Source of the DNA: a virus
Direction: 5' to 3' (one strand)
DNA length: 41,676 nucleotides
IMG/VR virus record: IMGVR_UViG_3300031951_000398
Location: 1 to 41,676 of that record
Both the position numbers and the translations under genes were made by a program. Positions within the stretch are counted from its first letter, which is position 1, and every line of letters starts with the position of its first letter. The notes beneath the pieces are model-generated. The model did not search any database. It was not told the DNA's origin and saw nothing but the letters and a program-made list of their open reading frames with translations. Of this stretch, positions 12,752 to 33,800 are shown piece after piece.

Positions 12752-13087
12752 TTAAATTGCGTGGGACTGCTTGAATACTTCCACGAAGTTAGACTGTTTC
12801 AACAAGTGAATCCAGATTTTTCCATGCTCTTCGATGTAAGCGTCATCGTGACCTTCAGAGATGAGATGAGAAACCAGCTTGTCGTTGAAGATTAAATATT
12901 CTGGGCGCTTGTTTTTAAAATTAGGAACAATGCAGCCTATTAGATTACTTGCAACGATTTTATATCCGGTCAACTTTGTGGAAAGATCCTCCTTTTCAAT
13001 ATCCATGTCTTCTACGGAGAATTCGATGCCGAGTTCATTGAGCTTACTGACAATTTGGTCTCTAACCTTATTGATTTTTGTTTGCAT
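12752..13087 (-). CDS. Hypothetical protein, about 111 residues
   Basis: The protein starts MQTKINKVRDQIVSKLNELG, with a helical N-terminus, then strands around LTGYKIVASNLIGCIVPNF and a helical end with YIEEHGKIWIHLLKQSNFVE. I chose the ATG at 13,085-13,087. An upstream ATG at 13,111, with a weak AAGG before it, would add eight residues and overlap uvdE by 44 bases. No family was recognised. A TTGACA promoter candidate lies inside uvdE about 90 bases upstream. Confidence 0.55.
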   Translation of the reverse strand: MQTKINKVRDQIVSKLNELGIEFSVEDMDIEKEDLSTKLTGYKIVASNLIGCIVPNFKNKRPEYLIFNDKLVSHLISEGHDDAYIEEHGKIWIHLLKQSNFVEVFKQSHAI

Positions 13088-13973: not shown

Positions 13974-14014
13974 GGTTCTACTGTGACACAGAATGCACAG
14001 GCGTCAAGAGTTTT

Positions 14015-14539
14015 TTAAGATTTAAAATCTTTCATCCCAAACTTACCGTCTTTGAAGAAAGCAAGCGTCTTTGACATTTGATCTGCATTAACGCACCAAT
14101 TATCCACTTGAGTATGTTTTTTATGATATTTTAATTGATCAAATTTTTTTCTTGAGATTGACCCAACGAATTCAACGGTAGTGTAATTCTTGTCGATTCT
14201 TGCCAGAATGTAAACCAAGGGATTTTTCTTTTGGTATTCTTCAAAAGGAATTTTTAATTCAATATCTTTATGGGGCCAAGTAGAAGCCTTAATCTCAACC
14301 CCATCAAAATCAATTTGATCTCCAAGATCATAGATATTGGTATCGATTTCTTGATCTGTTAAATCTGCGTAAGCGATTTCGACAGAGATACCGAGAATAT
14401 GCCAATAACAGCGTTCTTTTTTAATTTTGAACCTGTCTCTATTGCGAAACGATTCGTGTTTTGCGTTGTTGCGAGTCATGCCAAGTTTTTCAGCAAGTTC
14501 ACGCTGCTCCTTGGACAACTTATAAATATTATTAATCAT
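14015..14539 (-). CDS. Possible PD-(D/E)xK-type nuclease
   Basis: The 174-residue protein has a helical basic N-terminus (KLSKEQRELAEKLGMTRNNA) followed by a restriction-endonuclease-like core: GISVEIAYADLT, then DFDGVEIKASTW (an Asp, Glu-x-Lys arrangement), and VYILARI. The D...ExK pattern is the hallmark of PD-(D/E)xK nucleases, in which the acids bind metal. I saw no close family, so a nuclease is a proposal only. A palindrome-like or T4-type degradation role cannot be judged. It sits one base from the gene upstream. Confidence 0.5.
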   Translation of the reverse strand: MINNIYKLSKEQRELAEKLGMTRNNAKHESFRNRDRFKIKKERCYWHILGISVEIAYADLTDQEIDTNIYDLGDQIDFDGVEIKASTWPHKDIELKIPFEEYQKKNPLVYILARIDKNYTTVEFVGSISRKKFDQLKYHKKHTQVDNWCVNADQMSKTLAFFKDGKFGMKDFKS

Positions 14540-14791
14540 TTAAATAGTAATGATTGTTTTGCTCACTGAATCGCCGCATTGACCGCACTTTGGCCCAACT
14601 TCATGCGAATCGTATTGAAAATGCTCCATGATTCCTTCAAACGCCATATGATTATTAAGGACATGCTCTTTCACCTTTGCGAGAACATAATCAATAATTT
14701 TTGCTTTTTCTTCAGCAGGAAGATCGTGATATCGCTTCCCGTCCACAGAAAAATCATATGCGGTACACCCCTGACTGATCTCAAATTTCAT
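14540..14791 (-). CDS. Small CxxC protein, 83 residues
   Basis: This protein has a strand-rich start (EISQGCTAYDFSVDGKRYHD), a middle amphipathic helix, a His-rich MEHFQYDSHEVGPKCGQCGD segment and a final SKTIITI strand. The CxxC with nearby His residues could bind one zinc ion. No family was recognised. It is the first gene downstream of the cyclase and of the promoter candidate at 14,829-14,858. Confidence 0.55.
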   Translation of the reverse strand: MKFEISQGCTAYDFSVDGKRYHDLPAEEKAKIIDYVLAKVKEHVLNNHMAFEGIMEHFQYDSHEVGPKCGQCGDSVSKTIITI

Positions 14792-14813
14792 ACTTATTTG
14801 CGGTTAAGTTGTT

Positions 14814-16871
14814 CTACTTTGAAGTAGCAACATATACCCCATCCCAATTTTTTGTCAAGCCTTTTTCGCGCAATTCGCCGATTCTTTCTATCATCATGTC
14901 GTAATATTTTTTCAGTTCTGGGTTATTCTTCTTGAGGCTTTCGGCTAAGGTAATCGCATTGTCCCAGTTTTGGGCGCGGTAATCACAAATGAATCCATCG
15001 TGCATTCTGTAAATATGTTTTATTTTATCTTCATCGTGCTTGTTTTCAAGCACTGTGAATATTTTAACGCCTTCTTTCTTGCCCTTAACCGCAATCAAAT
15101 CTAATTCAAGTGTCTGGTAATCATTTTTGATATGCTCTGCGGTTCTGGGGCCAACTATGATTCTAACACCGTAAGGCTTAGATTGCCCTTCTAATCTAGA
15201 GGCGAGATTAACATGATCACCCAAGCAAGTGTAATCGAAACGCTGAGTGCTACCCATATTGCCAACGACAACGCTCCCAGTATTGATTCCGAGTCCCATG
15301 CCGAATGGCGGGACACCTTCTTTTGAGATTTCTTCATTGAAAGAGTCGAGACGTTTAAGCATCTCTAATGCTGTCTTTACAGCATTTTTCGCGTGATTAG
15401 CGTCATCAAGCGGCGCATTCCAGAACGCCATTTGAGCATCGCCAATGTACTTATCCAAAGTGCCATCGTTTTTCAATATCGATTCGGTCATTGCTGTCAT
15501 GTAGCGATTCATAATCATTGTTAAGCCTTGTACATTTTTACCATAGTGTTCTGAGATTGTAGTAAAGCCACGAACATCTGTGAACATGATAGAAAGCTCG
15601 CGTTCATCTCCACCTAAACGAAGCAAACCTGGGTTTTTTTGCAACTTCTCTACGAGTGCTGGCGCAAGATAAGTGCCGAATTGTTTTTTAATTAATTGTT
15701 TTTGTTTGAATTCGCTAATGAATCTCAAGAACGCGGATAACATGAACATCACTGATATTGCAATAATTATCCAACTGTAATCGAATAATTGCCCCTTGGA
15801 AAACGATACGAATCCGAATTTAATTGGCGCAGCCACCAAAGCAATATAAAAAAGCCCAGTCAACCAATAAGGGCCACTAATGAGTATTAATATTACGGCT
15901 AATCCTGCTAATGATCCATAAAGCAATTCATATAAATTAAATTGGCTAGGTCTTTCTAACCTAGCCTCATCTGCCAACATCTGAGCGGCGAACAATGGAA
16001 TTTCATATCCATATCTTATATTTACGGAGGTCGCAACAGTGTTTGATAACCCTTCAGCAGTCGGCGCAATCATAACAACTTTATCTTTAACTTTGCTCCA
16101 GTTGTGGTCGGCAAAAGATAATGAACTGAATTCATATTTAAAATTAATCCAGACGCGCCCATGCTCATCTGTTTTTATTGTTTTAAATTGCGGAATTCTA
16201 ACCGCATCTATTCCAGCTTGATTTATTCTTGCTTGATAGCTTGGGTCGCCAGCTAAAACACGAAGCATTTCAAGCGGTATAGTTGGATATATTTCTTTGT
16301 TTATTTGTACGATTAGCGGTAGCCTTCTAACTACACCGTCAACTTCTGGCGCAGTCAAAAGCATTCCAACGCCAGCCGCAGCTTCACCGAGTTGTTTCGT
16401 CGGACCAATCGCCGCATTATATTCAAATAACCATTCATTTATGCCCTCTCCAATTGTTGCGACGCCTCTTGGAACTGGTTGGCCTTTTCCTTTATTTGCC
16501 GCAGACTGACTCAAGATTACAGGGTAAGTTTTTAACACTTCTGTTAGTTCATCATCTCCATTGAATCGATCTTTCTCCGCAAAGATCACTGGCAGCACAA
16601 CTAACTGAGCTTGGTTATCGAATGCTTTTTTGATTGCTTTTGCAATAACTTGTCTTGGAAAGGGCCATTGACCTTCTTTCTCCAAAGTTTTTTCGTCTAT
16701 TTCCACTACAATAATATTTTCACTTATTTGCTTTGGTTGAGTTCGTTGATAATAATCAATAGTCTTGAGTCTGGCGGTCTCAATAAAAAATGGATCGTTT
16801 ATGCGCAGCACAACAAGTCCAATCAGCACAGCGAATGAAAATAAAAAAGAATATAATTTATATTTGCTCAT
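14814..16871 (-). CDS. Adenylate cyclase with CHASE2 sensor domain
   Basis: 685 residues. A first membrane helix (about 5-24) leads to a CHASE2 domain (about 30-295, with RLKTIDYYQR, VVEIDEKTLEKEGQWPFPR and GVVRRLPLIV), then three membrane helices (about 310-390) and a class III cyclase domain (about 420-610). MFTDVRGFTT supplies the first metal Asp, LDKYIGDAQMAFW the adenine-specifying Lys and second Asp, and FDYTCLGDHVNLASRLE the second specificity residue and the transition-state Asn and Arg. The residue pattern indicates ATP rather than GTP as substrate. It is the last gene of the curli-like operon and overlaps the FecR gene by ATGA. CHASE2 senses unknown periplasmic signals. Confidence 0.93.
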   Translation of the reverse strand: MSKYKLYSFLFSFAVLIGLVVLRINDPFFIETARLKTIDYYQRTQPKQISENIIVVEIDEKTLEKEGQWPFPRQVIAKAIKKAFDNQAQLVVLPVIFAEKDRFNGDDELTEVLKTYPVILSQSAANKGKGQPVPRGVATIGEGINEWLFEYNAAIGPTKQLGEAAAGVGMLLTAPEVDGVVRRLPLIVQINKEIYPTIPLEMLRVLAGDPSYQARINQAGIDAVRIPQFKTIKTDEHGRVWINFKYEFSSLSFADHNWSKVKDKVVMIAPTAEGLSNTVATSVNIRYGYEIPLFAAQMLADEARLERPSQFNLYELLYGSLAGLAVILILISGPYWLTGLFYIALVAAPIKFGFVSFSKGQLFDYSWIIIAISVMFMLSAFLRFISEFKQKQLIKKQFGTYLAPALVEKLQKNPGLLRLGGDERELSIMFTDVRGFTTISEHYGKNVQGLTMIMNRYMTAMTESILKNDGTLDKYIGDAQMAFWNAPLDDANHAKNAVKTALEMLKRLDSFNEEISKEGVPPFGMGLGINTGSVVVGNMGSTQRFDYTCLGDHVNLASRLEGQSKPYGVRIIVGPRTAEHIKNDYQTLELDLIAVKGKKEGVKIFTVLENKHDEDKIKHIYRMHDGFICDYRAQNWDNAITLAESLKKNNPELKKYYDMMIERIGELREKGLTKNWDGVYVATSK
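14829..14858 (-). promoter_or_regulatory. Promoter candidate at cyclase 3' end, TTGACA-18-TATGTT
   Basis: Minus strand: TTGACA (14,853-14,858), 18-base spacer, TATGTT (14,829-14,834). It lies in the last codons of the cyclase gene and would serve the two small genes starting at 14,791, with a leader of about 30 bases. Confidence 0.4.
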
Positions 16872-18010
16872 TTTTGAATAATGTTTACTTTTGATTTCTC
16901 TCCAAAATTTAATACATAAGGTTCGCCGTTTACATTGACGCTCACGTTGTCGCCAAGTCTAGCGGTATAAACTATTACGCTTTTTTCTGTTCGTAATTCA
17001 AGTGTGGCAGTTTTGCCATCATTTGACTTAAATCCTTTGCTAACTGCTACATTAGGAGTTAATGTTGCTGTGGGCTGAACAATAGCTGGGGCAGTTTGAT
17101 TTGATTTAGCTATTGCTTCCTCTGCCGCAGCTTGAACAACTTGGGGCTGGATTGCATTGATATCCAGTTTAGTTTCTGGAACTTGCACTGGCGTTTCAGT
17201 TGTTGCGGTTTGTGCAACTACTGCTTCTGCTGGAGCTTCACTAGGCTTATCTACTTGAGCAACTTCAGTTTTGCCCTCTTTCTTTTTATTTGGCTCGTCA
17301 TCTTTCTTTCCGTCATCAGTTTTTTCTTTGCCTTCTTTCTTTGTAGTTTTGCTGCCTTGAGTAACTGATTTTGGGGACTCAAGCAAAATCATATTATTGA
17401 TTTTTGATTCATCTTGGAAATTTAAAATAACAGGTTGAGTGGGGGCATTGAATCCAGAGCTAACAAATGTTGCTTGGTAAGGTTGGTTCATGACAACTTT
17501 GCCCCCAGCATTCTCCACTTCAATAGATCCTACAACTGGCTTTATGCCAGATGCTAGTGGGATGGACGGCAAAAGAACAATTAAACTCTTGCCGTCCTCC
17601 GATACTGTCATTGAAAAGTCCGTGCCTCTTACAGAAACAACTGCTGTAGGAGTTTGAACTTTTATGTTTTCTCTGCTATTCTTTGCTATTAATCCTGACG
17701 CATATCTAACTGTGCCAGATGTTGCTTTCATGTTCAGTTTGCCTTTACCACTGGCAGGGTCATAGACAAACTCGTCTATCCTCAACTTGGAAAACTCTGT
17801 AATTTGAACTTTGGTATTGTCTTCAAAGGTAATGCCAGCGCGACCTCGCAATGTTTCTATAACGTCATTCATTTCGACGCCAACGCTGACTTTACCTTCA
17901 ATCTTTTCGGTCTTTCTGGTTATTTGTGTCGGCCCAGTTATTTCAGTAAGTTGACCAGAAGAGGCGAAGCAAGATAAAGCCGCTAATAAAAATATAGCGG
18001 CTATTCTCAT
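16868..18010 (-). CDS. FecR-domain exported protein
   Basis: 380 residues. A signal peptide (MRIAAIFLLAALSCFASSG) precedes a FecR domain (about 25-145) with AGITFEDNTKVQITEFSKLR and ENIKVQTPTAVVSVRGTDFS, the most typical block. A Lys and Glu-rich, then Ala, Pro and Gln-rich linker (about 215-300) follows, ending in a short beta domain. Periplasmic FecR domains pass signals to or stabilise other envelope proteins; in many bacteria they occur next to CHASE2 cyclases. Here it is the fourth gene of the operon, between the curlin-like and cyclase genes. It has no membrane anchor like classical FecR, so it is likely periplasmic and free. Confidence 0.85.
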   Translation of the reverse strand: MRIAAIFLLAALSCFASSGQLTEITGPTQITRKTEKIEGKVSVGVEMNDVIETLRGRAGITFEDNTKVQITEFSKLRIDEFVYDPASGKGKLNMKATSGTVRYASGLIAKNSRENIKVQTPTAVVSVRGTDFSMTVSEDGKSLIVLLPSIPLASGIKPVVGSIEVENAGGKVVMNQPYQATFVSSGFNAPTQPVILNFQDESKINNMILLESPKSVTQGSKTTKKEGKEKTDDGKKDDEPNKKKEGKTEVAQVDKPSEAPAEAVVAQTATTETPVQVPETKLDINAIQPQVVQAAAEEAIAKSNQTAPAIVQPTATLTPNVAVSKGFKSNDGKTATLELRTEKSVIVYTARLGDNVSVNVNGEPYVLNFGEKSKVNIIQK

Positions 18011-18816
18011 TAATTAGTCGGTGGGGCAATTGTTGCTGTTGTTTGAGCCGCTCCAGCGACACCGTTTTGGTTATTGCTATTCAATGTCATCAATGGTGAA
18101 AAAGCTGTAGTGGTCTGAACAATGCGAACAGTATTGTTGCTACCAGTTAAATTATAATTAAAAAGCTGTTTCTCTAAGCCAGCTTGGTAAATAGTCAAAT
18201 CATTAGATCCACCTGTGATTGTAACAGTTTGTTCATGACCATCTTTAGTCGCTGTACCACCAGCCACTAAACCAATTTGGGTAGACTTAATTGTATTTGA
18301 ACTGCCAGTTACTTCGTAATCAATATAATTATATTTACCATTCTCGATGCCGAATTTAAATACGTTTGAGTTGCCAGTTACATTGAACTTAAAGTCGCTG
18401 TAACTAACGGTGGCTTTTGACGTATCTGTATCAGATGTATGGTCAACGGTAACATCTTTATTGAGCAGGAATGAATTATTGTTTCCGTTAAAAAGCAAGT
18501 TCATATTGTTGTTTGATCCGCTCATAAAAATCTTTTGAGTATTCGCGTTGCCATTAAATACCGAAACTAATTTTAGATTGTTTGCATCGATAATTGAGAA
18601 ATCCGTATTGTTGTTATTTCCCATTTGTCTCATTTCAAAAAGGATGTTATCTCCAGTGATATTACTGGGTGTTTGAGACGAACCTACTTTATTGAGAGAT
18701 CCAACCTGTACAAAGGTTGTATTTCCCGAGGTTGTAATCTGATTAACGTAAAGCTGGTTCTGCCCGAAGGCGAGGGAAACCAACGTTACGAATAACGCGA
18801 TCAGTTTAATCTTCAT
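18010..18816 (-). CDS. Curlin-like exported repeat protein
   Basis: 268 residues. An Ala-ended signal peptide (residues 1-18, MKIKLIALFVTLVSLAFG) is followed by irregular curlin-like repeats in which a GxxN turn is flanked by alternating polar and hydrophobic residues, often with Q near the end: VTGSSNTIKSTQIG, ITGGSNDLTIYQAG, LTGSNNTVRIVQT and others. Asn, Thr, Ser and Gly are enriched and Cys is absent, as in amyloid subunits. Family members cross the outer membrane through CsgG and polymerise on the surface. It overlaps csgG by 11 bases and meets the FecR gene at one base. Whether it forms fibres cannot be decided here. Confidence 0.8.
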   Translation of the reverse strand: MKIKLIALFVTLVSLAFGQNQLYVNQITTSGNTTFVQVGSLNKVGSSQTPSNITGDNILFEMRQMGNNNNTDFSIIDANNLKLVSVFNGNANTQKIFMSGSNNNMNLLFNGNNNSFLLNKDVTVDHTSDTDTSKATVSYSDFKFNVTGNSNVFKFGIENGKYNYIDYEVTGSSNTIKSTQIGLVAGGTATKDGHEQTVTITGGSNDLTIYQAGLEKQLFNYNLTGSNNTVRIVQTTTAFSPLMTLNSNNQNGVAGAAQTTATIAPPTN

Positions 18817-19609
18817 TGTTTTGGGGTTGAGGTTTTAGTTTCCAAAGTTTACACTCTTGGCCTTGTTTAATGATTTCTATTACTGCTTGTTCTATCGCAC
18901 TTCTAACCGCAATAGTATTAGGTTCGTTTGCAGTGAAACCAAGCTCTGATTCTGCTGGTGTTACTCCGTGTTCGTAAAATTTAAACAAGTTGCCCGAAGC
19001 TGCCACACTGGAAATTGTTTTTGTAACTGCAACACTCAGAATGATTTCGCCAGTTTGTACACTGACAAATCGTAATGAAACAGTTACAACATCTTTGCGA
19101 TATTGGGTGCTGCCAGATATACCAAGAAGGCTGGCACCGGCACCACCAGTTAAGATATTAGTATCGTAGCCAATAATTCCTCCTTCTGCAATTATGCCCG
19201 CAAATAACATTGGCATCAGTTTTTCTGCGTCTTTGCCTTGAAATGACTCTCTGGTTTGATTTATAAGTTGACGCTCTCTTATAACATTATCTAAATTAGA
19301 GCGTTCCAAAACTTGGAACCATTTGCCATCTCCTGCAATTCGCAAAGCATCTATGAGCCAACTTTCTGCGCCTTGAGTTACTGCTGACGAAAAGGAGGCG
19401 TAGGCGTCAACTGTTTTACGTTGTCCAGTTTTATCGGCAAACGCATAAACTGCGATTGTCATTCTGGGGTTGTCTGGCTCAGGTAAATTTTTAAGCTGCT
19501 CTTCAAGCGGAGAAGTCTGCAACTTGGGCAAAGTTATGATAGCTGGCTTCTCTGGCAGAGAGGCGCATCCAACTAGACTAAGCAATAAAAGGCTTGCCAG
19601 CCATTTCAT
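18806..19609 (-). CDS. csgG: CsgG-like outer-membrane secretion lipoprotein
   Basis: 267 residues. The lipobox LVGC (about residues 12-15) after a hydrophobic start marks a lipoprotein. The CsgG family region follows: RMTIAVYAFADKTGQRK, then SWLIDALRIAGDGKWFQVLE, RSNLDNVIRERQLI and GIIAEGGIIGYDTN, with the membrane-hairpin region after residue 150 and VVTVSLRFVSVQTGEIILSV. The length is close to E. coli CsgG (277 residues). The family forms nine-fold outer-membrane pores for curlin subunits. The start shares a base with the csgF-like stop (TAATG). Confidence 0.93.
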   Translation of the reverse strand: MKWLASLLLLSLVGCASLPEKPAIITLPKLQTSPLEEQLKNLPEPDNPRMTIAVYAFADKTGQRKTVDAYASFSSAVTQGAESWLIDALRIAGDGKWFQVLERSNLDNVIRERQLINQTRESFQGKDAEKLMPMLFAGIIAEGGIIGYDTNILTGGAGASLLGISGSTQYRKDVVTVSLRFVSVQTGEIILSVAVTKTISSVAASGNLFKFYEHGVTPAESELGFTANEPNTIAVRSAIEQAVIEIIKQGQECKLWKLKPQPQNNED

Positions 19610-20061
19610 TAAGGAGTTGGAGCTAAGACGCCAACAGGAACTTGTATTTGAGTTGTGTTTCCTGTGGCGGGGTCAACAATAAAAAGAGTAACCATATCTC
19701 CGTTTTTCTGCCATGTAACAGTCGCTCCTCCTTGTAAATTAATTATCCCAAAATTTGCGCCTCCTGCGTTAAAAATTTGATCGGTAACTTGAGAAGCAAG
19801 CTGAGAGTAAATTCTTGCCTGTAAGTTGTTTATAAAATTATTTAATGGAGTGTTTTGAGATTGTATTTTTTCTTGTTCAAGCTCTGCTTTGGCAATATCT
19901 TTTATCGATTGTTTTCTGGTTCTAGCTAAATTTTCAATCGTAATAATGTGACCAGAAAAATTTACTCCATTAAACGCTGGAGATTTAAAAGAATAAACCA
20001 TGTCACTGCCAAATGCGTTGGTAGCGCAAACTAAAAAGAGTAATATTTTAGCGAGATTCAC
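19609..20061 (-). CDS. csgF: CsgF-like curli assembly factor
   Basis: 150 residues. A signal peptide (MNLAKILLFLVCATNAFGS) is followed by MVYSFKSPAFNGVNFSGHII, which matches the CsgF N-terminal motif that caps the CsgG pore, a helical middle, and a C-terminal beta region with GDMVTLFIVDPATGNTTQIQVP. The family protein sits at the pore exit and links it to the growing fibre. The length is close to E. coli CsgF (138). The start is GTG at 20,059-20,061, with no other good choice before the signal peptide. It is the first gene of the operon, and no csgE-like gene was seen. Confidence 0.88.
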   Translation of the reverse strand: MNLAKILLFLVCATNAFGSDMVYSFKSPAFNGVNFSGHIITIENLARTRKQSIKDIAKAELEQEKIQSQNTPLNNFINNLQARIYSQLASQVTDQIFNAGGANFGIINLQGGATVTWQKNGDMVTLFIVDPATGNTTQIQVPVGVLAPTP

Positions 20062-20077: not shown

Positions 20078-20728
20078 TTATTCTTTTTTAAATTGATAAA
20101 AGTAATCCCAATTGTCACCGGCAATCCATTTGCCTTCTCCTTCGCAGGTAAACTCTTGAGTAAAGACTTGCCAATCAGGTTTCTCTAACTTTTTAGAGAT
20201 AAAAGCCCCACCATCTTTCCATACAACTCTGTTATTTGGTTGCAAAAACAATTGGTTTACAGGCTTGCCATCTTTATCTTTCAGCCCCCAAATAACATGA
20301 CCACACTTATGACCGCCAGCCATTTCAGAGTATCCGTAAGAAGCGTCTGGATTGTCGCGCCAGTCAATAGTAAAAAGATATTTACCCTCGACCCACTCAT
20401 GGTTCTTTAGCTGAATATTAACTCTCGCATTTTTATGATACTCCCATCGGGTAACTGAAATGTCATAAGAGAAACAGTCCCACAACTGCAACCAATCTAA
20501 GGGTAAATTAGAATGTTGTGGCTCGTTTACCAAAAAATGAATTGGAACACGATCATGACGCGAGCCATATTCCGTCATGACTTGAAACGTTAAACATCTT
20601 CTGGTTAAGCTGGTAACCCCAAAAACTTCACAAAGAACGTATTCTGTTTTTTTGTTCTCGTTGTTATAGAGGAAGTCGCTTTTTAAATAAGCTGGAAATA
20701 CAGGGATGTTTGCATTAAGGTGAGGCAT
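20078..20728 (-). CDS. Conserved hypothetical, 216 residues
   Basis: The protein is beta-rich and aromatic. Segments resemble a hypothetical protein seen in marine phages: KYLFTIDWRDNPDASYGYSE, GHKCGHVIWGLKDKDGKPVN and QLFLQPNNRVVWKDGG. There is no signal peptide. It ends 16 bases before the csgF-like start but does not look like CsgE. The role is unknown. It overlaps the upstream 62-residue gene by TAATG. Confidence 0.65.
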   Translation of the reverse strand: MPHLNANIPVFPAYLKSDFLYNNENKKTEYVLCEVFGVTSLTRRCLTFQVMTEYGSRHDRVPIHFLVNEPQHSNLPLDWLQLWDCFSYDISVTRWEYHKNARVNIQLKNHEWVEGKYLFTIDWRDNPDASYGYSEMAGGHKCGHVIWGLKDKDGKPVNQLFLQPNNRVVWKDGGAFISKKLEKPDWQVFTQEFTCEGEGKWIAGDNWDYFYQFKKE

Positions 20729-24986: not shown

Positions 24987-26519
24987 ATGTCAAGGGAATC
25001 TAATCATAAAGTAAATGCGGAGCTTTTTTCGCTTGAGCCTACGGCCTTGCTTGAATTCTTCGTGATTTATTATGATTATGTTAATAGACCAGACGAAAAA
25101 CTCTACATTCATGGTGGCACAAACGGCATAAATGGCTCAGTTTGGTGGCAAGGTCAGGAATATTCTCCATTTCCCATACAGAGTTCTGGTTTCGAATCAA
25201 AGGGGGATGGTTCTTTACCTAGACCAAAGTTAATGGTATCAAACCAAGACTTTTTCATGTCGAACTTGATTCGTCGATATGATAACCTTATTGGTGCCAA
25301 GATAGTTAGAAAAAGAACTTTCGTCAAATTTTTAGATAACAAAAACTTTTCTGGGTCAGTTCATCCTTATGGATCTGCTGATCCAAGTGCAGGTTTGGAA
25401 GATCAGGTATTTTATATCTTAAGAAAATCTTCTGAGAACAGATCAATTGTGGAGTTTGAGTTAGCTTCGCCGTTAGAGCTTGATAATGTCACTTTCCCTA
25501 AAAGAATTGTAATGGCGAGATATTGTTCATTTCATTACAGAGGTATAGGTTGCAGGTACTCTGGCCCACCAATAGCAGATGAAAATGACGTTAAAATATC
25601 TTCTCCTACCGATGTTAGAAACGGCTTAATTAAACGTAGATATGATAAAGCTGGCCTTGTACTGCCAACAAATACAGCGACCTTTATATCTGGCATTAGT
25701 TCAGTAACAACAGCAACAGAATCTGTTGTGTCAAATATATCTGTAGATAACGAAGATAATTTCTATCTTGAGTTTCTTGGGTTTTTCAAAGTTGGTAAAG
25801 GACAAGCAGGAGAATACATATTTGGAGTTAATAATGACGAATCTGTAGAGTTCATTTTAAATAATAATATCATTGTAAAAGATTATGGACCCGGCCCGCA
25901 AGACCCTGCGTCAAAGCCAAAATGGTCTGGCAGAGTAGAATATTTAAGCGAAGGGTATCATAGATTATTAATTAGATATGCGGAATCAACTGGTGCTCAA
26001 GGACTTGCATTATATTACAAAACTCCAAATTCAGCTAATATGTCTCTCGCTGTTGATTCAGCTTCTTGGGTAGCATTGCCAGCGTCGAGACTTTATTACG
26101 ACATAGATGAAGTTGGCAAGTTGGCAGCAAATCAAAACTTCAGTTCTAATATCTCTTTGAGCAGAACAGTGTCATTAAATCAAAGCTCTCTTGGAGATGG
26201 AGTAACAATTGATCGTGGAAGATGGGTAACTAAAAGTAATTATAAGGTAGGCGACTTTGTTTATGTCGAAAACCATAACGTAAAAATTCCTAAAGACAAT
26301 ATAAATGCAATTCCAAATTGGGAGCCGTTACAAAAGATTTATATATGCCTTAAAGATCATACCAGTTCGCCAACCAATGCGCCTTATTTAAATAAAACAT
26401 TATGGGTGGCAGATCAATGCTCTAAAACTTTAAGTGGATGTAAATTAAGATTTGGGCGCGAAGCATCTTTACCTTTTGGTGGATTCCCAGGAACAGAAGA
26501 ATACTCAATAAACGGATAA
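24987..26519 (+). CDS. L: Tail tip protein L homologue with inserted domains
   Basis: 510 residues against about 230 in lambda gpL. The N-terminal part is gpL-like: a typical WWQGQEYSPFPIQSSGFESK, LPRPKLMVSNQDFFMSNLIR and GAKIVRKRTFVKFLD. Four C-terminal-type cysteines are kept in the lambda spacing: Cys180-x8-Cys189 and Cys478-x6-Cys485. Lambda gpL binds an iron-sulfur cluster with its four. Between the two pairs is an insertion of about 288 residues holding a PA14-like domain (about 250-350, with FKVGKGQAGEYIFGVNNDES) and a carbohydrate-binding-like module (about 410-470). The protein sits at the tail tip; the insertion suggests glycan recognition. Confidence 0.88.
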   Translation: MSRESNHKVNAELFSLEPTALLEFFVIYYDYVNRPDEKLYIHGGTNGINGSVWWQGQEYSPFPIQSSGFESKGDGSLPRPKLMVSNQDFFMSNLIRRYDNLIGAKIVRKRTFVKFLDNKNFSGSVHPYGSADPSAGLEDQVFYILRKSSENRSIVEFELASPLELDNVTFPKRIVMARYCSFHYRGIGCRYSGPPIADENDVKISSPTDVRNGLIKRRYDKAGLVLPTNTATFISGISSVTTATESVVSNISVDNEDNFYLEFLGFFKVGKGQAGEYIFGVNNDESVEFILNNNIIVKDYGPGPQDPASKPKWSGRVEYLSEGYHRLLIRYAESTGAQGLALYYKTPNSANMSLAVDSASWVALPASRLYYDIDEVGKLAANQNFSSNISLSRTVSLNQSSLGDGVTIDRGRWVTKSNYKVGDFVYVENHNVKIPKDNINAIPNWEPLQKIYICLKDHTSSPTNAPYLNKTLWVADQCSKTLSGCKLRFGREASLPFGGFPGTEEYSING

Positions 26520-26520
26520 T

Positions 26521-26883
26521 ATGAAATCAATTGTAGAACACGCATCAACATCTAATCTTGAAGTTTGTGGATTTGTATTTGTGGAAAATGGAGAATTAAA
26601 AACTGAACCTGCAAAGAACATCGCAGTTTATCAAAATGATTTGTTTGAGATACATCCATTAGAAATACTGCGCCATATGAAAAGTGGTAAATTAGCCGCT
26701 ATTTACCACACTCATCCAGAGACAGGCGATAATGAATCAGAGTTTGACAAGTTTAATTGCGAGAATTCTTGTATTCCTTATGTCATTTATAGCAAAAAAA
26801 CAGAATCATTTAATCTTTTAGTGCCAAGAAAACCTCATGTAAATAAACAGTATATAGAATTATTAAAACAAAAATATGACTAA
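26521..26883 (+). CDS. K: Tail assembly protein K-like JAMM peptidase
   Basis: 120 residues forming the JAB1/MPN metalloprotease half of lambda gpK. Glu14 (NLEVCGF) and the JAMM motif H63-T-H65, then S73 and D76 (YHTHPETGDNESEFD) give the zinc ligands and catalytic Glu. The NlpC/P60 peptidoglycan hydrolase half of lambda gpK (about 200 residues) is missing. The role is assumed to be tail-tip maturation. It starts one base after the L stop and overlaps the I-like gene by eight bases. Confidence 0.85.
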   Translation: MKSIVEHASTSNLEVCGFVFVENGELKTEPAKNIAVYQNDLFEIHPLEILRHMKSGKLAAIYHTHPETGDNESEFDKFNCENSCIPYVIYSKKTESFNLLVPRKPHVNKQYIELLKQKYD

Positions 26884-29365
26884 TGTTTATCTATATGGTG
26901 AGTTGCGAAACAAATTTGGATCAGAATTTAAATTTCACATAAATTCTGGCAAAGAAGTTTTTTTGGCGATTAATGCCAATAGAAAAGGATTTTTTGATGA
27001 AGTAAAAAAATTAGCCGCAAAAAATATTCATTATAGAATAGTTGTTGACGATCAAGTTGTAGAAAACCCAAATGAATTTTTAATAACAAAAGCTCCTAAA
27101 GAAGTTCATATAATTCCTGCTGTATGGGGGGCTGGCGGCAATGGTGTTGTTCAAACGGTAGTAGGCGCTTTATTAATCGCCGCATCATTTTTACCTATTC
27201 CTGGTGCTCAATTTTTAGCTTATATCGGAAGTGCATTACTGGTTCAAGGCGTAATGACGCTTCTTTTCCCTCCTCCAAAACCAGACTTTAATCAAGAAGT
27301 TGCGGCAGGAGGCAAATCTTATCTCTTCGGACAAAAACCGCCAAACACATCACAAGGGCAAGCTGTGCCAGTTGGATATGGAAGACTACTAGTAGAGTCT
27401 TCGCAAATTAGCTTTGGCATTAATCATTATCCTCTAAAGACTGACATTAAAACTTTGATGGCCCCAGTTGATAGACCAATTGATGATTTTCTTGAACTTG
27501 AATATAAGAATGAAGATTCGCCAAGTATCACTCTTGACAGTTTTTATACTAATCAGGCAATGGGAATGGATGAGCCACTTTCATTTGCTTCCGTAAATAT
27601 ATTAAATTCTTATATTAATATTGTTACAAATGCAACATCAAAAGTAACTACTGAGCCAGTAGAAGTAGTAGTCAAGAGAGATGGAGAAGTAGTATCTAAT
27701 CCAAACTTAACTACTTTTGACGAAGACATTGAATATCAATGGTCAAACATGAATGCTGATGGAGGCAAGCCAAAGATAAGAATTGAGAATCCATATTCGT
27801 TTGATGCTGGATTAGTTTATAGATCTTATCAAGCTCCCGATTTCGCGCTCAACCCAGATTTGAATGTTAAAAATACTGACGCTTCATTCTTTGCGAGCTA
27901 CAAACAAAATCAATATGTTAAATATGGTCCAATGCAATTTAAAAATCTTAAATTCGCTATATGGGATTCAACTTATACATATGTAAGCGGCGAACTTATT
28001 TCTTTTAATGATAAGTATTATCAATCGATAGCAGGCAATTCAAATCAATTACCAACTGGAGTTGGAGGTATAACAAATACAACATATTGGCAGCAGGTAA
28101 CATCTCCAGATACTGAAAGTTTATATTATGCTTTGTCTGATAATTCTAGATTTCTTCCTACGGATGTTGTTAAATGGCAAAGAATAGCAACTTCTCCACA
28201 AACCAGCGGAGATATGAATGAAAGATTTGATCGTTTTGGCGCTCCCAAAAATCTTGATGATAAAATTTATCTTGGTGATTTTAAAAATATAAATGAAAAT
28301 AGTGTCGGCGATAGTAATGCAAATGTTGATAACTATGGAATGGAATTTTTAGGTTATTTCCATGTGCCATTAGTGAGAGATAGATTAATTAGCGTAATGG
28401 ATGCTACAGCAGATGTAATGTATGAGATAGTAAAAGTTGGTACTTTTAATCAATGGGCTAGTATAGGATTAACCGGAGAAAATGGCGCGGCAATAGCTCC
28501 AGTACCGGGTATGACATTCAAAAAGAATTCTACGGTGGTAGTTGGAGATGGTCAAGTTTATCCAGTTGTTAAATATAGATTTAAATTAGATTCGGATGAC
28601 GCTTCTGATTTCTTTATTGATGGTTGGACTGGAAGTTCATACTACGGCAATCACGGAATGTATTCTGGATTTGCGAATCCCAATAATCCAACTCAATCCG
28701 AGATTGCAGCTTTACCATCTCTGGTAACAGAAGCTTTATTAACAGTTGGCTATCATAGAATGTATGCAAGATTTCAGGATGATCTGGGCGGGGAAGGCAT
28801 AACGGTTTATTATCAATATGATAGTAATTGGGATGGAACTTATTCAAATTATGCTCCAATACCATCATCTGCACTTTTCCATAAAAAATCTACAGATTTG
28901 ATTATACCCAAGAACCAGAAGTTTATGTCCAAAACCCAACTTATTCCTGCAACAAGTATGGTCACGGGCAAAAAATATAAAATTGTTAAATTGGGAACTG
29001 TAAACTGGGGCAAGTTAGGAGCAAGTTCTCCTGTAGTTGGTTCAGTATTTATTAAGATAGCAACTCCTGGTGGTTATACAATTCCCGCAGATGGATTTGT
29101 TTACGAGGATACTTTCAGTTATTACGAAGGTAAATCCGCCAATTCAAATAGAATTATTAGATTTGTCGCTGACAGACCAACAGATATAGATAAGGTTGAC
29201 GAAGGTTTATCGTTCTATCAGGTAAAATATAAATGCAATGTCAAACTTGATAGAGTAACTTTAAACACATCGCCTGTAAAGGTTAATATTAAATTCCTCC
29301 CAACAGAAACTAAATTTAATGGAACTGTTGGCATAGCACTTCCACCGCAGGTAAACTCAATCTAA
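26876..29365 (+). CDS. I: Tail assembly protein I homologue, greatly extended
   Basis: 829 residues; lambda gpI has about 220. The N-terminus is gpI-like: VYLYGELRNKFGSEFKFHIN with a ubiquitin-type start, then a membrane-like GAGGNGVVQTVVGALLIAAS and an FPPPKPD segment, and QAVPVGYGRLLVESSQISFG. Later parts carry a carbohydrate-binding-like module (about 361-409), a PA14-like region (about 485-670, with TVGYHRMYARFQDD) and two copies of a short repeat: YEIVKVGTF...GMTF (about 514-565) and YKIVKLGTVNWGKLGA (about 699-744). The extension resembles receptor-binding modules. No Shine-Dalgarno was seen. Confidence 0.82.
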   Translation: MTNVYLYGELRNKFGSEFKFHINSGKEVFLAINANRKGFFDEVKKLAAKNIHYRIVVDDQVVENPNEFLITKAPKEVHIIPAVWGAGGNGVVQTVVGALLIAASFLPIPGAQFLAYIGSALLVQGVMTLLFPPPKPDFNQEVAAGGKSYLFGQKPPNTSQGQAVPVGYGRLLVESSQISFGINHYPLKTDIKTLMAPVDRPIDDFLELEYKNEDSPSITLDSFYTNQAMGMDEPLSFASVNILNSYINIVTNATSKVTTEPVEVVVKRDGEVVSNPNLTTFDEDIEYQWSNMNADGGKPKIRIENPYSFDAGLVYRSYQAPDFALNPDLNVKNTDASFFASYKQNQYVKYGPMQFKNLKFAIWDSTYTYVSGELISFNDKYYQSIAGNSNQLPTGVGGITNTTYWQQVTSPDTESLYYALSDNSRFLPTDVVKWQRIATSPQTSGDMNERFDRFGAPKNLDDKIYLGDFKNINENSVGDSNANVDNYGMEFLGYFHVPLVRDRLISVMDATADVMYEIVKVGTFNQWASIGLTGENGAAIAPVPGMTFKKNSTVVVGDGQVYPVVKYRFKLDSDDASDFFIDGWTGSSYYGNHGMYSGFANPNNPTQSEIAALPSLVTEALLTVGYHRMYARFQDDLGGEGITVYYQYDSNWDGTYSNYAPIPSSALFHKKSTDLIIPKNQKFMSKTQLIPATSMVTGKKYKIVKLGTVNWGKLGASSPVVGSVFIKIATPGGYTIPADGFVYEDTFSYYEGKSANSNRIIRFVADRPTDIDKVDEGLSFYQVKYKCNVKLDRVTLNTSPVKVNIKFLPTETKFNGTVGIALPPQVNSI

Positions 29366-29366
29366 A

Positions 29367-30299
29367 ATGAAAATATTGAATTCATATAGATTCGGCAAAG
29401 GCGCAAAAGATGACGAATCACAAATTCCTGCTTTGATTCCGCCCAAAGACCAGAAGTTAAACAAATCTATATCTATTGCCGAAAGCATTGATATTATATG
29501 CGAAGGCCCGATCTATGGCTTGGTAGATCAATTCGGCAAAAAGGTTTATGGCTTGGATATGTTGAAAGGAATTTATTTAAATGGAAATGCGGTAATGAAT
29601 TCAAAGGGTGAATATAACTATAGAAACATATTGATGGAGATTAATCTAGGTACAGAGAATCAAAAACCACTTCCAAGTTTTAAATATGTAAGTATACCGA
29701 AAGCCGTTAATTTTAAATTATTAGGTCCAATTAAAAATTCATACGCTAGTGGTCAAAACCCAGATGTAAAAACAGGCCCAAATCCAGACCAAGTAAGAGA
29801 CTTTGTTCGTTGGGGAAGAGCGCCAAAAGGCGACTGGCCTAGTGAAGACAAAGATCCATTTGTATTTATTCATAAGATAAGAAACCGAGATGTTTCAAAA
29901 GTTAAAATAAGTCTTTTAGTAGAAAAATTAAATGACACTGTAGATATAGGCGAAAAAGGTAAAGCTGGAAGTATTGGCACGATTGCACAAACATCAATTA
30001 CTTTAAGAATAAAGCATGGTTTAGAAAGTTCTAATATAGTAACTTGCCAAGATGTTACAATATGGGGAAGTGCAACAAGCCCATTTGCTTATATGTTAGG
30101 AGAAAATGAAGAAACCTATTCTGCTCCTTGGGTGACCGATTTGGGAAGATCTTCTTCGGTTGGAGGTATGGGACCAATCGGAGGAACAACATCTTCAGCT
30201 TCTGCATCTGCTACAAGATCATTGCCATCATCAATTGGAAGCGATGCTGATTGGTTATCTAGACTGCCACAAGCTCCAACAATAGGTCAATACGTTTAA
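29367..30299 (+). CDS. J: Tail tip protein J homologue, N-terminal part
   Basis: 310 residues corresponding to the N-terminal part of lambda gpJ: SISIAESIDIICEGPIYGLV (compare gpJ CEGEIEGL) and LKGIYLNGNAVMN, then a beta-rich region ending in a Gly and Ser-rich tail. It begins MKILNSYRFGKGA, closely similar to the start of the third J fragment (MKILNPNRFAKGA). The J protein is the host-range spike of lambda; here its pieces are separate chains, and this one would form the base. Confidence 0.82.
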   Translation: MKILNSYRFGKGAKDDESQIPALIPPKDQKLNKSISIAESIDIICEGPIYGLVDQFGKKVYGLDMLKGIYLNGNAVMNSKGEYNYRNILMEINLGTENQKPLPSFKYVSIPKAVNFKLLGPIKNSYASGQNPDVKTGPNPDQVRDFVRWGRAPKGDWPSEDKDPFVFIHKIRNRDVSKVKISLLVEKLNDTVDIGEKGKAGSIGTIAQTSITLRIKHGLESSNIVTCQDVTIWGSATSPFAYMLGENEETYSAPWVTDLGRSSSVGGMGPIGGTTSSASASATRSLPSSIGSDADWLSRLPQAPTIGQYV

Positions 30300-30303
30300 T
30301 AAA

Positions 30304-30867
30304 ATGCCAATATTAAAAACACAAGAGGAGATATTAGCTTCTAAAATAAATCCAAGAAATAATACTTCGGCTCTTGGAGTCATTTATTATTTAAAAAATA
30401 GAAGCTTTGCTGATTATGTTCCGTCGTCGCCAGACAGAATAGTTTGGGGATTTAGTTTACCTGGTTATGGCGCTGGAACTGTTAAAACATTTACTGGCAT
30501 ATATAATACAAGTAACGTAGAAACATCTACATTTGCTAGAGGGGCAACAATAGTTTTAAAAGGGCAAGCTACATATTTATTAAGTAGCGCCAATTCTAAT
30601 ATAATTAAACCTGTTTTGGGGATAACTGCCCAAATAGATATAGATGGCACAACAACATCTTTTCCGAGCAAACAAGTTTTAGCGGCTGCTACAGAAATTC
30701 AAAGTGACGGTCAGTTTGCTTTTAATATACCGTCTTCAATTACTTCTTTAATGGCGGTTGGTAGACATTCTGTTTATTTAGACGGCTTTTCGCCAAAAGG
30801 AACTGTAAGATTAGCTGTCGCGAATTCAACTGATGACGTAAGATATTTTAATATAACGGCATCTTAA
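30304..30867 (+). CDS. Beta-rich protein inserted within J region
   Basis: 187 residues with repeated strands and Ser, Thr, Asn-rich loops: KTQEEILASKINPRNNTSAL, VWGFSLPGYGAGTVKTFTG and AQIDIDGTTTSFPS, ending in YFNITAS. No signal or catalytic motif. An Ig-like or fibre-type fold is likely. It lies four bases after the first J fragment and 10 before the second, so it is part of the tail operon. It might decorate the tail tip. I know no family. Confidence 0.65.
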   Translation: MPILKTQEEILASKINPRNNTSALGVIYYLKNRSFADYVPSSPDRIVWGFSLPGYGAGTVKTFTGIYNTSNVETSTFARGATIVLKGQATYLLSSANSNIIKPVLGITAQIDIDGTTTSFPSKQVLAAATEIQSDGQFAFNIPSSITSLMAVGRHSVYLDGFSPKGTVRLAVANSTDDVRYFNITAS

Positions 30868-30877
30868 TTTATAATAA

Positions 30878-33800
30878 ATGATGAAAATTTTAAATCCAAA
30901 TAGATTTGCCAAGGGAGCAGAAGACCCAGGTGAAGGCAGCAACTCTGATCCCACAGTTGATTTGACAAATCAGTCAACAAAGATTGGCGAGATTGTATTG
31001 CCGCCATCTGTTGATGGGAAAGATAGATTTATATCGATTGAGAAATTAACCCCAGAAACAATATCTCCATTAGTGTCTAAAGATGTTAGCGTTGAAGGTA
31101 TAATTGAAGTTGTAGACAGATCATTTTCATATCCATTGACTGCTCACGTTGGATTAAAAATTGATTCAAGAACATTTTCGAATATTCCAGAAAAGAAATT
31201 CGATGTTAAGATGAAGAAGGTAAAAGTACCTTCAAATTATTTTGGTATTGGCGGTAATGGATTAGACAGAAGATATGTATATTCAAATCCGAATTATGAT
31301 GGCGATCCCAATAATTTAGATTTGGTATTTGTTATTGATCAGAACTTAAATTTAGCAAATAGAAGGCTGATTAAAAGAAATTTAAAAGAGATGTTGGGTA
31401 AACTTTGTTCTGGATATACTTATATCAGAGCATCGATATGGCAAACATCAGCGGATAAAAATACAGTAATAAATCAAAAAACTGGTGAAACTATAACTAA
31501 TTTCACCCATTACGAAACATATGAATTTTTTGAGGTTGAGACGCCAGATTCATCTGGAAATAATAATACAAATCTTTATACAAAATTAAATGCTGCTCTT
31601 GATGACGCCAACAAAATTAGCATAAATGAAAGTTTAGTAAACGATGCCGTTATTGCATCTTTCTTTTTAAGAAGAAGCCAATTTGGTCTTTCTGATGAGG
31701 CGGGAGTTGTTTCAGAAGAGAAGGTTTTAAAAACAATCTGGAACAATACTGTAAGAAAAGTTATATATATATCTGGCACAAATCCAGATCAAGTTATTTC
31801 TGGTTATAATACTATGCTTAATTTTGCCAGAGAAAACGCCATTCAGTTTTACTTTTTATTCTCTGACGCACAAGACTCTAACACAAATACTTTAAGAGAA
31901 TTCGCGATTGATACTGGTGGCGGTAAATTCAATATGATGCACAAATCGGATATTGAATTGCAGCAATTTTTCGACGAGCAGTTTTACGACAACAATAGAA
32001 TCTATTATGGAGATTGGGATGGAACATTTAAAATTGCATGGACAGATAATCCAGCTTGGATTCTTTATGATATTCTCACTAACGCAAACTATGGTTTAGG
32101 AAATCATATTGATCAATCTTCCATAGATAAATGGACTCTTTATGATGTTGGTAGATACTGCGACGCAGTAGATGATAAAGGCAGATTCCAAGGAGTGCCA
32201 GATGGCAAAGGCGGTCTTGAGCCAAGATATACATGTAATATCATTTTCTACAATAAGGACGAAGCTTATAAGGTAATAAAAGACATAAGCGCAATTTTTA
32301 AAGGCATAACTTATTGGAATACAGAAGGATTCTCATTCTTTGCCGATAGGCCAAAAGATCCTGTAATGTTTTTTGGAAATGCCGATGTGCTTGATGGAGC
32401 TTTCAATTATAGTGAGACGGCTAAAAATACAAGACATACGAGTGTCGAAGTTGTATATAATGATAAATACGACGGCTATAAAACAAAAATAGAGTTCATC
32501 GAAGATGTCGATGGCATTAAAAAGTTTGGACTCAATCCATTTAAAATTAATGCGGCTGGATGCACATCAAGATCAGAAGCTAGAAGAATAGGGCGATATG
32601 TTCTTTATTCTTCAATGTTTGAAGCTGATACCGTTGCGTTTACCGCTGGATTAAATGCGGCTTATCTGCAACCTGGTGATGTATTTGGAGTTAGCGACGA
32701 AGTTAAAAATGTTGCGAGAACATTTGGAAGAGTATTGAATGTCGATGAAGTAGCAAATCAAATTAGAATTGATAGTGAGTTTGCTCAAGGATTATCTTCT
32801 GGTATTTTCTTGCACGTTCCATCTGGAAATTTTGCAGTTTCAGATTTAAATTCAATGACTGGAAGCAATGGAGGCTTCACTGGCAACATAGAAACTATTC
32901 GCGCAAGAAGACAATCTCAGGTAAGAAAATTTAATATTCATACTGTAGAAGAAGAAGTCGGCAATTCATATGGAGCATTATTAACTGTAACAGGAGATTT
33001 TCTTTTAAAGTCAGGAGTCATTGACGTTTACGTTGAAGAGGGAAGAGTTTCAGGTTCCAATCAAATTACTGGAGAGAGCGAATTGACTGGCTTGGTATAT
33101 ACATTCCCACAAAATACAGTTATAGAGGGAAATCCTCGTTGGGATGTTGCAAAATTCTCAAGCTTGTCTGGCGTTTTAAATGATCTTAAAATTGAATTTG
33201 ATGTTTCTGGAACCGCTGGTACTGGTCAATTGATAGCAAACGAAACTAATTGGGAGTGTTTATTGTCTTATGGTATATCTACTCCATCTACAATTTCGGT
33301 TAATAATGTTCAAGTTCAGACCGTAACTACAAATAAAATTAAGGTATCATTTTTTAATACTCTTGGAGTTCACCAGCAATCTACAGAAGTAGACGACCTC
33401 AATGATATATGGTCTGGTTCTGCATTTAGTGCAGCCAATGCAGATGGCGTAATAACAGTGGTGTCTAATGGAGCGAAAATCTCTAATAGTTTTGTACCAA
33501 ATTCTAACTGGAATAATTATGCGGCAACGGAGGTATTTAAAATAGGCAAAGATGTAAGTTCAACAACTACATCTTTTGGCTACACTGCCGCATTTATAAA
33601 AGGTGGAAGCAGAATAATTGAAAGAGCTTCCAAGGGAATGAACGATTACGGTAGATTAAAATTTAGATATAGAGACTTACTAGCTTTAAGTAAATTAAGA
33701 CCTTATTATACTTTCCTTCAGGCTGACATAGGAAACAGAAGGGAATCGTTTTACGAAAACTGGACAAGCAATAGATATTACGAAGTAGGTAATATTGTTA

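Follow-up and report, generated by a model that had tools for sequence, protein, structure and literature searches.

A phage operon that combines curli export genes with a FecR-domain protein and a CHASE2 adenylate cyclase

Why would a phage that carries curli genes also carry a FecR-domain protein and an adenylate cyclase? The question is raised by virus record IMGVR_UViG_3300031951_000398 of IMG/VR (G000 in our set), which we analyzed over its positions 1 to 41,676; we refer to this whole stretch of 41,676 nucleotides as the window. Five overlapping genes on its minus strand, between positions 14814 and 20061, encode in order a CsgF-like protein, a CsgG-like protein, a curlin-repeat protein, a FecR-domain protein, and a CHASE2 class III adenylate cyclase. 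Why FecR and the cyclase accompany the fibre genes had been left open by the published work on phage curli clusters. The explanation that we favor, while giving it somewhat less than an even chance, is that the phage operon joins a curli export module to a bacterial FecR-CHASE2 sensor-cyclase pair, with FecR acting as a periplasmic link rather than as an iron regulator. It draws on gene content, conservation, the separation of the two modules in bacteria, a C-terminal pattern in FecR, and the catalytic residues of the cyclase. The window adds a further member to a phage cluster already described, though in another type of phage; what is new here is the split between modules, the curlin-like end of FecR, and the presence of the unit in lambda-tailed phages and in 286- to 364-kb contigs with a T4-type capsid gene. 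The genes of the operon are as follows.

19609..20061, minus strand: csgF-like gene, predicted pore-associated chaperone (150 amino acids [aa], GTG start; Pfam CsgF)
18806..19609, minus strand: csgG-like gene, predicted outer-membrane curli export pore (267 aa; Pfam CsgG, Escherichia coli CsgG structures)
18010..18816, minus strand: curlin-repeat (CsgA/B-like) subunit (268 aa; orthologue alignment, Curlin_rpt in orthologues, 8c50)
16868..18010, minus strand: FecR-domain protein (380 aa; Pfam FecR, AlphaFold2, Foldseek, C-terminal motif)
14814..16871, minus strand: CHASE2 class III adenylate cyclase (685 aa; Pfam CHASE2 and Guanylate_cyc, catalytic residues)

All five frames were confirmed, and adjacent ones share 1 to 11 bases. 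This layout and the family matches, which for curlin come through its orthologues, bear out the original prediction for this DNA, which had placed these five families in one operon and proposed profile and structure searches of each. Curated Pfam cut-offs are passed by four of the five proteins, all but the curlin-like one: CsgF (PF10614) scores 68.3 bits (cut-off 25.8), CsgG (PF03783) 174.8 (20.8), FecR (PF04773) 41.2 (24), and the cyclase 135.9 for CHASE2 (26.3) and 77.9 for Guanylate_cyc (21.9). The CsgF-like protein also matches phrog_35372 with 107 bits, and a sequence search of the PDB gave no match of note for it. The CsgG-like protein matches structures of E. coli CsgG (3x2r, E 5e-44; 4uv3, E 4e-42), and its N-terminus carries a lipoprotein signal, as judged by eye. 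For curlin the outcome was divided, since the window's protein has no curlin match of its own in Pfam, whereas its orthologues and a profile built from them do match. Namely, the Q, G, and N residues of the curlin repeat are invariant in a 22-sequence alignment (the window's protein and 21 others), with the pattern Q-x-G-x-x-N common to the phage orthologues; 6 of the 9 orthologues or paralogues scanned are above the Curlin_rpt cut-off; and a 24-row profile matches the solved curlin 8c50 with E 3e-8 and E. coli CsgA with only E 0.34. The AlphaFold2 model of the protein consists of many short strands (mean predicted local distance difference test [pLDDT] score, 79), for which Foldseek returned no PDB match below 1e-3. 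By the alignment, the orthologues, and the 8c50 profile, we assign it as a predicted curlin-repeat subunit. As far as families can tell, the operon contains every component by which a type VIII secretion (curli) system is recognized: a CsgG pore, CsgF, and a curlin-repeat subunit. The CsgE gate (PF10627), which is usual in curli systems, if not strictly required, was found in none of the 11 operon-bearing records searched, the window included, while the E. coli control matched; with CsgE absent, the pore could be open.

The cyclase has its CHASE2 domain at residues 17 to 312, a hydrophobic stretch at about 325 to 390 (by eye), and its catalytic domain at 425 to 605, and it can be aligned with CyaB (3r5g) and CyaC-type (2w01) structures. 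Six residues, D432, K474, D478, T548, N555, and R559, are all present, and we take them to be the metal, adenine-site, and transition-state residues. Across 46 phage cyclases, the two Asp, the Lys, and the Arg are invariant, and the adenine-site residue is Thr in 36, Asp in 7, and Ser in 3. The protein thus qualifies as a predicted CHASE2 class III adenylate cyclase with its catalytic residues in place. These assignments agree with the general idea of the original prediction, that one gene set would supply an exported fibre, its pore, and a second messenger.

The FecR-domain protein has a hydrophobic N-terminus, a FecR domain at about residues 19 to 205, a disordered linker at about 207 to 323, and a small beta region at about 334 to 377. 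In the AlphaFold2 model, the domain is confident (pLDDT mostly about 90) and the last strand spans residues 373 to 377. The FecR profile had no sequence match in the PDB; by structure, Foldseek relates the domain to PupR (6ovk, E 2e-4) and to a putative anti-sigma factor represented by two entries, with E values ranging to 4e-4. Only the FecR domain exceeds a Pfam cut-off in this protein, with no anti-sigma part, and the domain follows at once after the hydrophobic leader. In addition, sigma-70 region 2 (Sigma70_r2) had no match in the window or in a 55-kb contig that shares its operon. The lack of both makes a classical iron regulator less likely, though it does not exclude one.

How constant is this combination among viruses? 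We examined the best 80 of 299 CsgG relatives in viral contigs, counting a locus only if its contig was long enough for the gene in question; some viruses are represented by several nearly identical rows, each from another sample (e.g., L066, L067, L068, and L079). csgF adjoins csgG in 72 of 73 testable loci, the exception being L080, where it lies about 1.9 kb upstream. Downstream, curlin is found at 70/70, FecR at 64/64, and the cyclase at 49/49 testable loci. The search for the same gene order in viral genomes that the original prediction had suggested therefore recovered the full five-gene set in 44 of 45 testable loci. In 6 of the 49 loci (L066, L067, L068, L079, L081, and L082), the cyclase is encoded in the opposite direction, still 2.7 to 3.9 kb from csgG. 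These loci include contigs of 138 to 364 kb that resemble near-copies of one virus. On the 297-kb contig of L045, the cyclase match (12803-15670) falls in two frames, as if broken or misassembled.

To place the operon against bacteria, we used profiles built from the phage proteins themselves for gene calls at the viral, FecR, and CHASE2/CsgF loci. A scan of 84,980 species genomes with FecR gave at least 465 relatives, of which 80 were kept. Curli genes occur at 8 of these 80 best bacterial or archaeal FecR loci: csgG is present at seven of them, and the eighth (L169) has a fragment of curlin where its contig ends. The original prediction had named the same operon in many bacteria as a finding that would tell against it; only these 8 of the 80 best loci carry curli genes, two of them in chromosomal surroundings. 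No csgF or csgG was found at the remaining 72, although a CHASE2/cyclase match lies near 19 of them at over 120 bits and near 24 at any score. Likewise, among 40 alphaproteobacterial CHASE2 loci, chosen from the upper part of the hit list rather than at random (36 with a cyclase domain), FecR is present at 19, from overlapping to 3 kb off, and csg genes at none. As some of these contigs are short, 19 of 40 should be read as a minimum. The class III cyclase domain is present in 17 of the 19 FecR-CHASE2 pairs. Conversely, neither FecR nor CHASE2 was found at any of 30 bacterial CsgF loci. On the counts of 8/80 and 0/30, we reject the idea that the unit is a common bacterial operon. Since, at the alphaproteobacterial loci sampled, FecR-CHASE2 neighbours come without curli, and curli genes without FecR or CHASE2, the phage operon brings together modules that are otherwise apart. 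An association between the FecR and CHASE2 partners has some precedent: the available text of one study describes CHASE2 cyclases of Campylobacterota that cluster with a FecR-domain outer-membrane protein, with one pathway proposed for both (PMC9239204), and passages of another describe a FecR-domain gene of Sinorhizobium targeted by the cAMP regulator Clr (PMC5498481).

Of the eight curli-bearing FecR contigs (L164 to L170 and L184), five had part of their flanking genes scanned (L164, L165, L167, L169, and L170). Two metagenome-assembled genome (MAG) contigs of Caulobacteraceae, L165 (7034-13091) and L167 (7071-13091), carry csgF-csgG-curlin-curlin-FecR-CHASE2 cyclase between chromosomal genes, which are a TonB receptor and an S9 peptidase, and an amidohydrolase, an acyl-CoA dehydrogenase, and a methylmalonyl-CoA mutase. 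Because these flanks are chromosomal, a related operon does exist in bacteria, contrary to a published statement. Both contigs group with a phage CsgG, yet they form a separate branch inside the phage-type cyclase clade. L170 adjoins a DUF6267 gene, a member of the phage family phrog_455.

The window's FecR-domain protein ends in a curlin-like strand (...LNFGEKSKVNIIQK). The motif [VIL]-x-[VIL]-x-Q lies within two residues of the stop in all 48 distinct complete phage FecR proteins. A separate search gave 461 viral relatives of FecR, of which 80 were kept as a listing (L084-L163). At the curli-bearing genome contigs, 6 of 7 complete FecR proteins have it in strict form and 1 of 7 in loose form. 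Elsewhere it is rare: 0 of 77 FecR open reading frames (ORFs) at other bacterial loci in strict form (one loose), 0 of 18 complete FecR proteins adjoining CHASE2, and 11 of 1130 background ORFs from which FecR and curlin had been removed. The longer pattern G-x4-[VIL]-x-[VIL]-x-Q, which has the exact curlin spacing, has a frequency per 1000 residues of 7.9 in curlins against 0.13 in background ORFs. It closes 45 of the 48 phage FecR proteins and occurs nowhere else within them; after thinning at 60% identity, it closes 14 of 17. Only 3 of the 1130 background ORFs end in this way, two of which are by appearance FecR fragments.

From these observations, we infer the following sequence of events, in which it is a proposal that FecR is secreted, that it contacts curlin and CHASE2, that cAMP is produced, and that the phage benefits. 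During infection, the phage CsgG pore, with CsgF, would be placed in the host outer membrane, and the curlin-like protein would be exported through it to form an amyloid-like coat on the infected cell. FecR would be secreted to the periplasm, where its last residues, a curlin-type strand, may make contact with curlin or with its export pore. The FecR domain would relay the state of the fibre or pore to the CHASE2 domain of the inner-membrane cyclase, and cytoplasmic cAMP would thereby report on fibre export. The phage might benefit from an altered cell surface, aggregation, or the exclusion of other phages. By default, cAMP would be taken to act through host receptors of the CRP type. In its most specific form, which we regard as rather unlikely, the proposal is a closed circuit in which the FecR end docks on the phage curlin or pore and gates the CHASE2 cyclase, so that cAMP is the read-out of amyloid export. 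If true, the phage would carry a sensor for the secretion of its own fibres, in which a cyclase takes the place of the sigma factor of cell-surface signalling. In either form, the neighbourhood and C-terminal evidence turns the association into a specific, testable link between the FecR end and curlin, between FecR and CHASE2, and with cAMP.

Several points weigh against joining the modules through FecR. In the FecR model, pLDDT is only about 50 to 70 toward the C-terminus and partly below 50 in the last strand, and the C-terminal motif was defined after the sequences had been viewed. When profiles of the FecR C-terminus and of curlin are compared by hhalign, the match is weak with the full sets (probability 20%, P 0.0012) and has a probability of only 1% (P 0.043) when the full FecR set is set against marine curlins alone. 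With marine subsets, P lies between 0.0017 and 0.0021, and controls with other parts of the operon gave P of 0.19 or more, so that the likeness is only suggestive. Of the 19 bacterial FecR-CHASE2 pairs, 10 share a strand and 9 do not, which means that many of them do not form one operon. The difference between CHASE2 and CsgF loci in the presence of FecR (Fisher p 3.6e-6) compares unmatched lineages, as the 30 curli loci are mostly Caulobacterales and the CHASE2 loci are class-wide. In 5 of the 46 phage cyclases, including that of the Methylophilales phage Melnitz, the transition-state Asn is replaced by Ser. Finally, in the available text of Buchholz et al. (2022), no clumping was seen in Melnitz-infected cells (PMC9004378).

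Two other accounts share with our favored reading a role for the fibres themselves. Passages of PMC9599517 propose that FecR is an iron-dependent regulator, that the cyclase raises cAMP to regulate curli, and that the fibres aggregate or shield hosts. This is consistent with the company that FecR and the cyclase keep with curli in marine phages, as described there, with the fibre gene at 70/70 testable loci, and with sigma-70 region 2 matches above cut-off in 2 of the 11 operon-bearing records searched, including the contig of L012, a relative of the window. Yet the architecture of the FecR protein (a leader directly before the domain and no Pfam anti-sigma part), the lack of sigma-70 region 2 in the window and the 55-kb contig, and the bacterial FecR-CHASE2 neighbours without curli make iron regulation unlikely, if the strongest of the alternatives. 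Those same curli-free neighbours would suit a simpler account in which curli serve only as a coat, for aggregation or superinfection exclusion, and the cyclase drives host cAMP separately with FecR tuning it; so would the 6 of 49 loci in which csgG and the cyclase are encoded on different strands. Under such independence, there is little place for a curlin-like end in 48/48 curli-linked phage FecR proteins against 0/77 and 0/18 elsewhere, and we judge the account improbable, just behind iron regulation.

Another possibility is that the pore comes first: CsgG, with or without CsgF, would permeabilize the envelope for uptake or the timing of lysis, and the rest would be secondary. The authors of PMC7029224 and PMC9004378 argue for a pore in the passages available, and the missing CsgE gate fits one that is open. 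A bare pore, however, would need neither the curlin-like protein nor FecR, which are present at 70/70 and 64/64 testable loci. Moreover, Buchholz et al. state in the text available that Melnitz lacks csgA and csgB (PMC9004378), but its record, MZ577097.1, annotates two curlin-repeat proteins (52015-52734 and 53793-54809), both over the Curlin_rpt cut-off. We therefore consider the pore-first account doubtful, the least credible of these three. As for the trivial explanation, host contamination or a chimeric assembly, the two Caulobacteraceae contigs show that a related operon can stand next to chromosomal genes. In the window, however, phage genes lie on both sides of the operon, as the original prediction had noted; we identified lambda-like tail genes, RIIA, ribonucleotide reductase, and seven tRNAs. 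The operon is also repeated on further contig records. A CsgG 100% identical to the window's occurs on records from other metagenomes, whole in L004 and L005 and in part in L063, and on L004, the 55-kb contig, all five genes score as in the window; an assembly break, which had been raised as a concern, is therefore not what these records indicate. In the CsgG tree, the window lies within a 42-row clade of viral contigs only, with SH-like approximate likelihood ratio test (SH-aLRT) support of 100. Given the phage flanks and the operon on separate contig records, contamination and chimerism are so improbable that, with the tree position, we regard them as ruled out for the window.

The same tree bears on who carries the unit. 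It is, like the cyclase tree, a quick tree with long branches flagged, and its bacterial rows are alphaproteobacterial only. The Pelagibacter phage HTVC008M and Melnitz fall outside the 42-row clade. Inside it, lambda-tailed contigs are found together with carriers of a T4-type capsid gene (L045 and, by way of its equal L046, L047), a mixture suggestive of exchange across phage types. Phage-type CsgG separates from the 30 bacterial rows at SH-aLRT 99. A T4-type capsid gene was found in 7 of 18 operon-bearing records, including contigs of 286, 297, and 364 kb, and a lambda-like L protein in 3 of 18 records of a partly different set (L004, L012, and L030), most records in both sets being fragments. 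Because the unit is also found in lambda-tailed phages and in the 286- to 364-kb T4-capsid contigs, it looks like a mobile, selected package rather than a quirk of SAR11 phages, and the carriers of the full FecR/cyclase version now extend beyond marine T4-like phages and podophages.

The original prediction had also held that the full set was undescribed, and this did not stand: HTVC008M and Melnitz have the same order, and passages of Wittmers et al. (2022) describe pelagiphages, both podoviral and myoviral, that carry CsgF, CsgG, CsgA/B, FecR, and adenylate cyclase together (PMC9599517). Novelty of the set as such is thereby excluded. HTVC008M (NC_020484) carries csgF-csgG-curlin-FecR-(second curlin)-CHASE2 cyclase, with CsgG 48% and the cyclase 41% identical to those of the window; its annotation reads csgF-csgG-curlin-hypothetical-hypothetical-cyclase, the hypothetical proteins being FecR and the second curlin. 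Melnitz (MZ577097), annotated as csgF-csgG-curlin-FecR-curlin-cyclase, shares families and order, with identities of 50% for CsgG and 44% for the cyclase. Unlike these two phages, the window has one curlin gene and none between FecR and the cyclase. It further differs from HTVC008M in its lambda-like tail genes and the clade of its CsgG. Melnitz is distinguished by a T4-type capsid gene, by its additional curlin-repeat gene, and by a cyclase in which Ser replaces the transition-state Asn. A histidine kinase precedes csgF in podoviral members of the cluster, according to the available text of PMC9599517; in the window, the gene directly before csgF, the only one examined in this regard, is instead a phrog_3704 gene.

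Curli genes in other viruses have been described with fewer partners. Passages of Zaragoza-Solas et al. (2020) report CsgF and CsgG in pelagimyophages (PMC7029224), and other available texts report csgG in marine phage contigs (PMC7003362), csgGF in temperate viruses of sediment (PMC9636769), and csgA/G/F in a T4-like Bacteroidetes virus (PMC7198788). The passages available from PMC7003362 and PMC9636769 describe curli genes as in the window without mention of FecR or a cyclase, and a search for these two words in the available text of PMC7198788 found neither. We recognized no further description of a phage FecR/cyclase set in the open-licence PMC literature, a search that did not cover preprints. 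In a phage collection of 50,697 records, CsgG relatives are present in 7 and cyclase relatives in 8. One CsgG hit there (H7), the 1.5-kb record OR851715.1 named "Salmonella phage S.Kent 1-2-1," is 37% identical to the window's protein and may be host DNA deposited as phage.

Among cellular systems, bacterial curli operons, e.g., those of Caulobacterales, share CsgF, CsgG, and curlin repeats with the window but have FecR or CHASE2 at 0/30 CsgF loci and a CsgG that is set apart at SH-aLRT 99. Bacterial FecR-CHASE2 neighbourhoods resemble it in placing a FecR-domain protein near a CHASE2 protein, mostly with a class III cyclase, and differ in having neither curli genes nor the curlin-like FecR C-terminus. 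FecI/FecR/FecA signalling shares the fold of the FecR domain, as seen by Foldseek with PupR (6ovk). In that system, the FecR domain contacts the outer-membrane protein FecA, according to passages of PMC5498481. No anti-sigma part or sigma factor was found in the window, and its output would be cAMP.

Some phages may also bring their own receptor for cAMP. cNMP_binding is above cut-off in 2 of 18 operon-bearing records other than the window and is not found in the 55-kb contig that carries the window's operon. The matches are a 218-aa cyclic-nucleotide-binding protein on L244 and L245 (both 1396-2052; contigs of L051 and L045), about 13 to 15 kb from the operon. It matches PF00027 (61.5 bits on L244) and has a hydrophobic C-terminal part and no Pfam DNA-binding domain. 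On 15 viral loci with this protein, the contig also carries CsgG in 5 and CHASE2 in 6, and a 185-kb one has neither. It is a possible phage cAMP receptor, confined to some phages. The five phage cyclases with Ser in place of Asn (e.g., L001, 12556-14607) all have the adenine-site Asp and the motif V-S-T-A-A-R, and their activity or specificity may differ.

The remaining features of the window that bear on the operon or its phage context are as follows.

20078..20728, minus strand: phrog_3704 gene (ferredoxin label in a PHROG-type library), directly upstream of csgF
24987..36736, plus strand: lambda-like tail tip genes, L-like, I-like, and J-like (phrog_18, 270 bits; phrog_32, 130 bits; PF13550, 73 bits)

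The phrog_3704 gene, which has no Pfam match up to E 1, is separated from csgF by a gap of 16 bases and may share the operon transcript; it was left outside the system count. Scans for promoters (17 sites against a mean of 20.9 in shuffles, standard deviation [SD] 5.5) and terminators (7 sites against 5.9, SD 2.6) yielded numbers close to those of shuffled sequence. Beyond the other end of the operon, a UV-endonuclease UvdE gene (13068-13973, 119 bits) lies in a stretch with 49% G+C and strong G skew, against 37 to 44% in the adjacent kilobases, and is perhaps a recent arrival. Further away, positions 6385-7056 encode a 2-oxoglutarate-Fe(II) [2OG-Fe(II)] oxygenase (PF13759, 68.8 bits).

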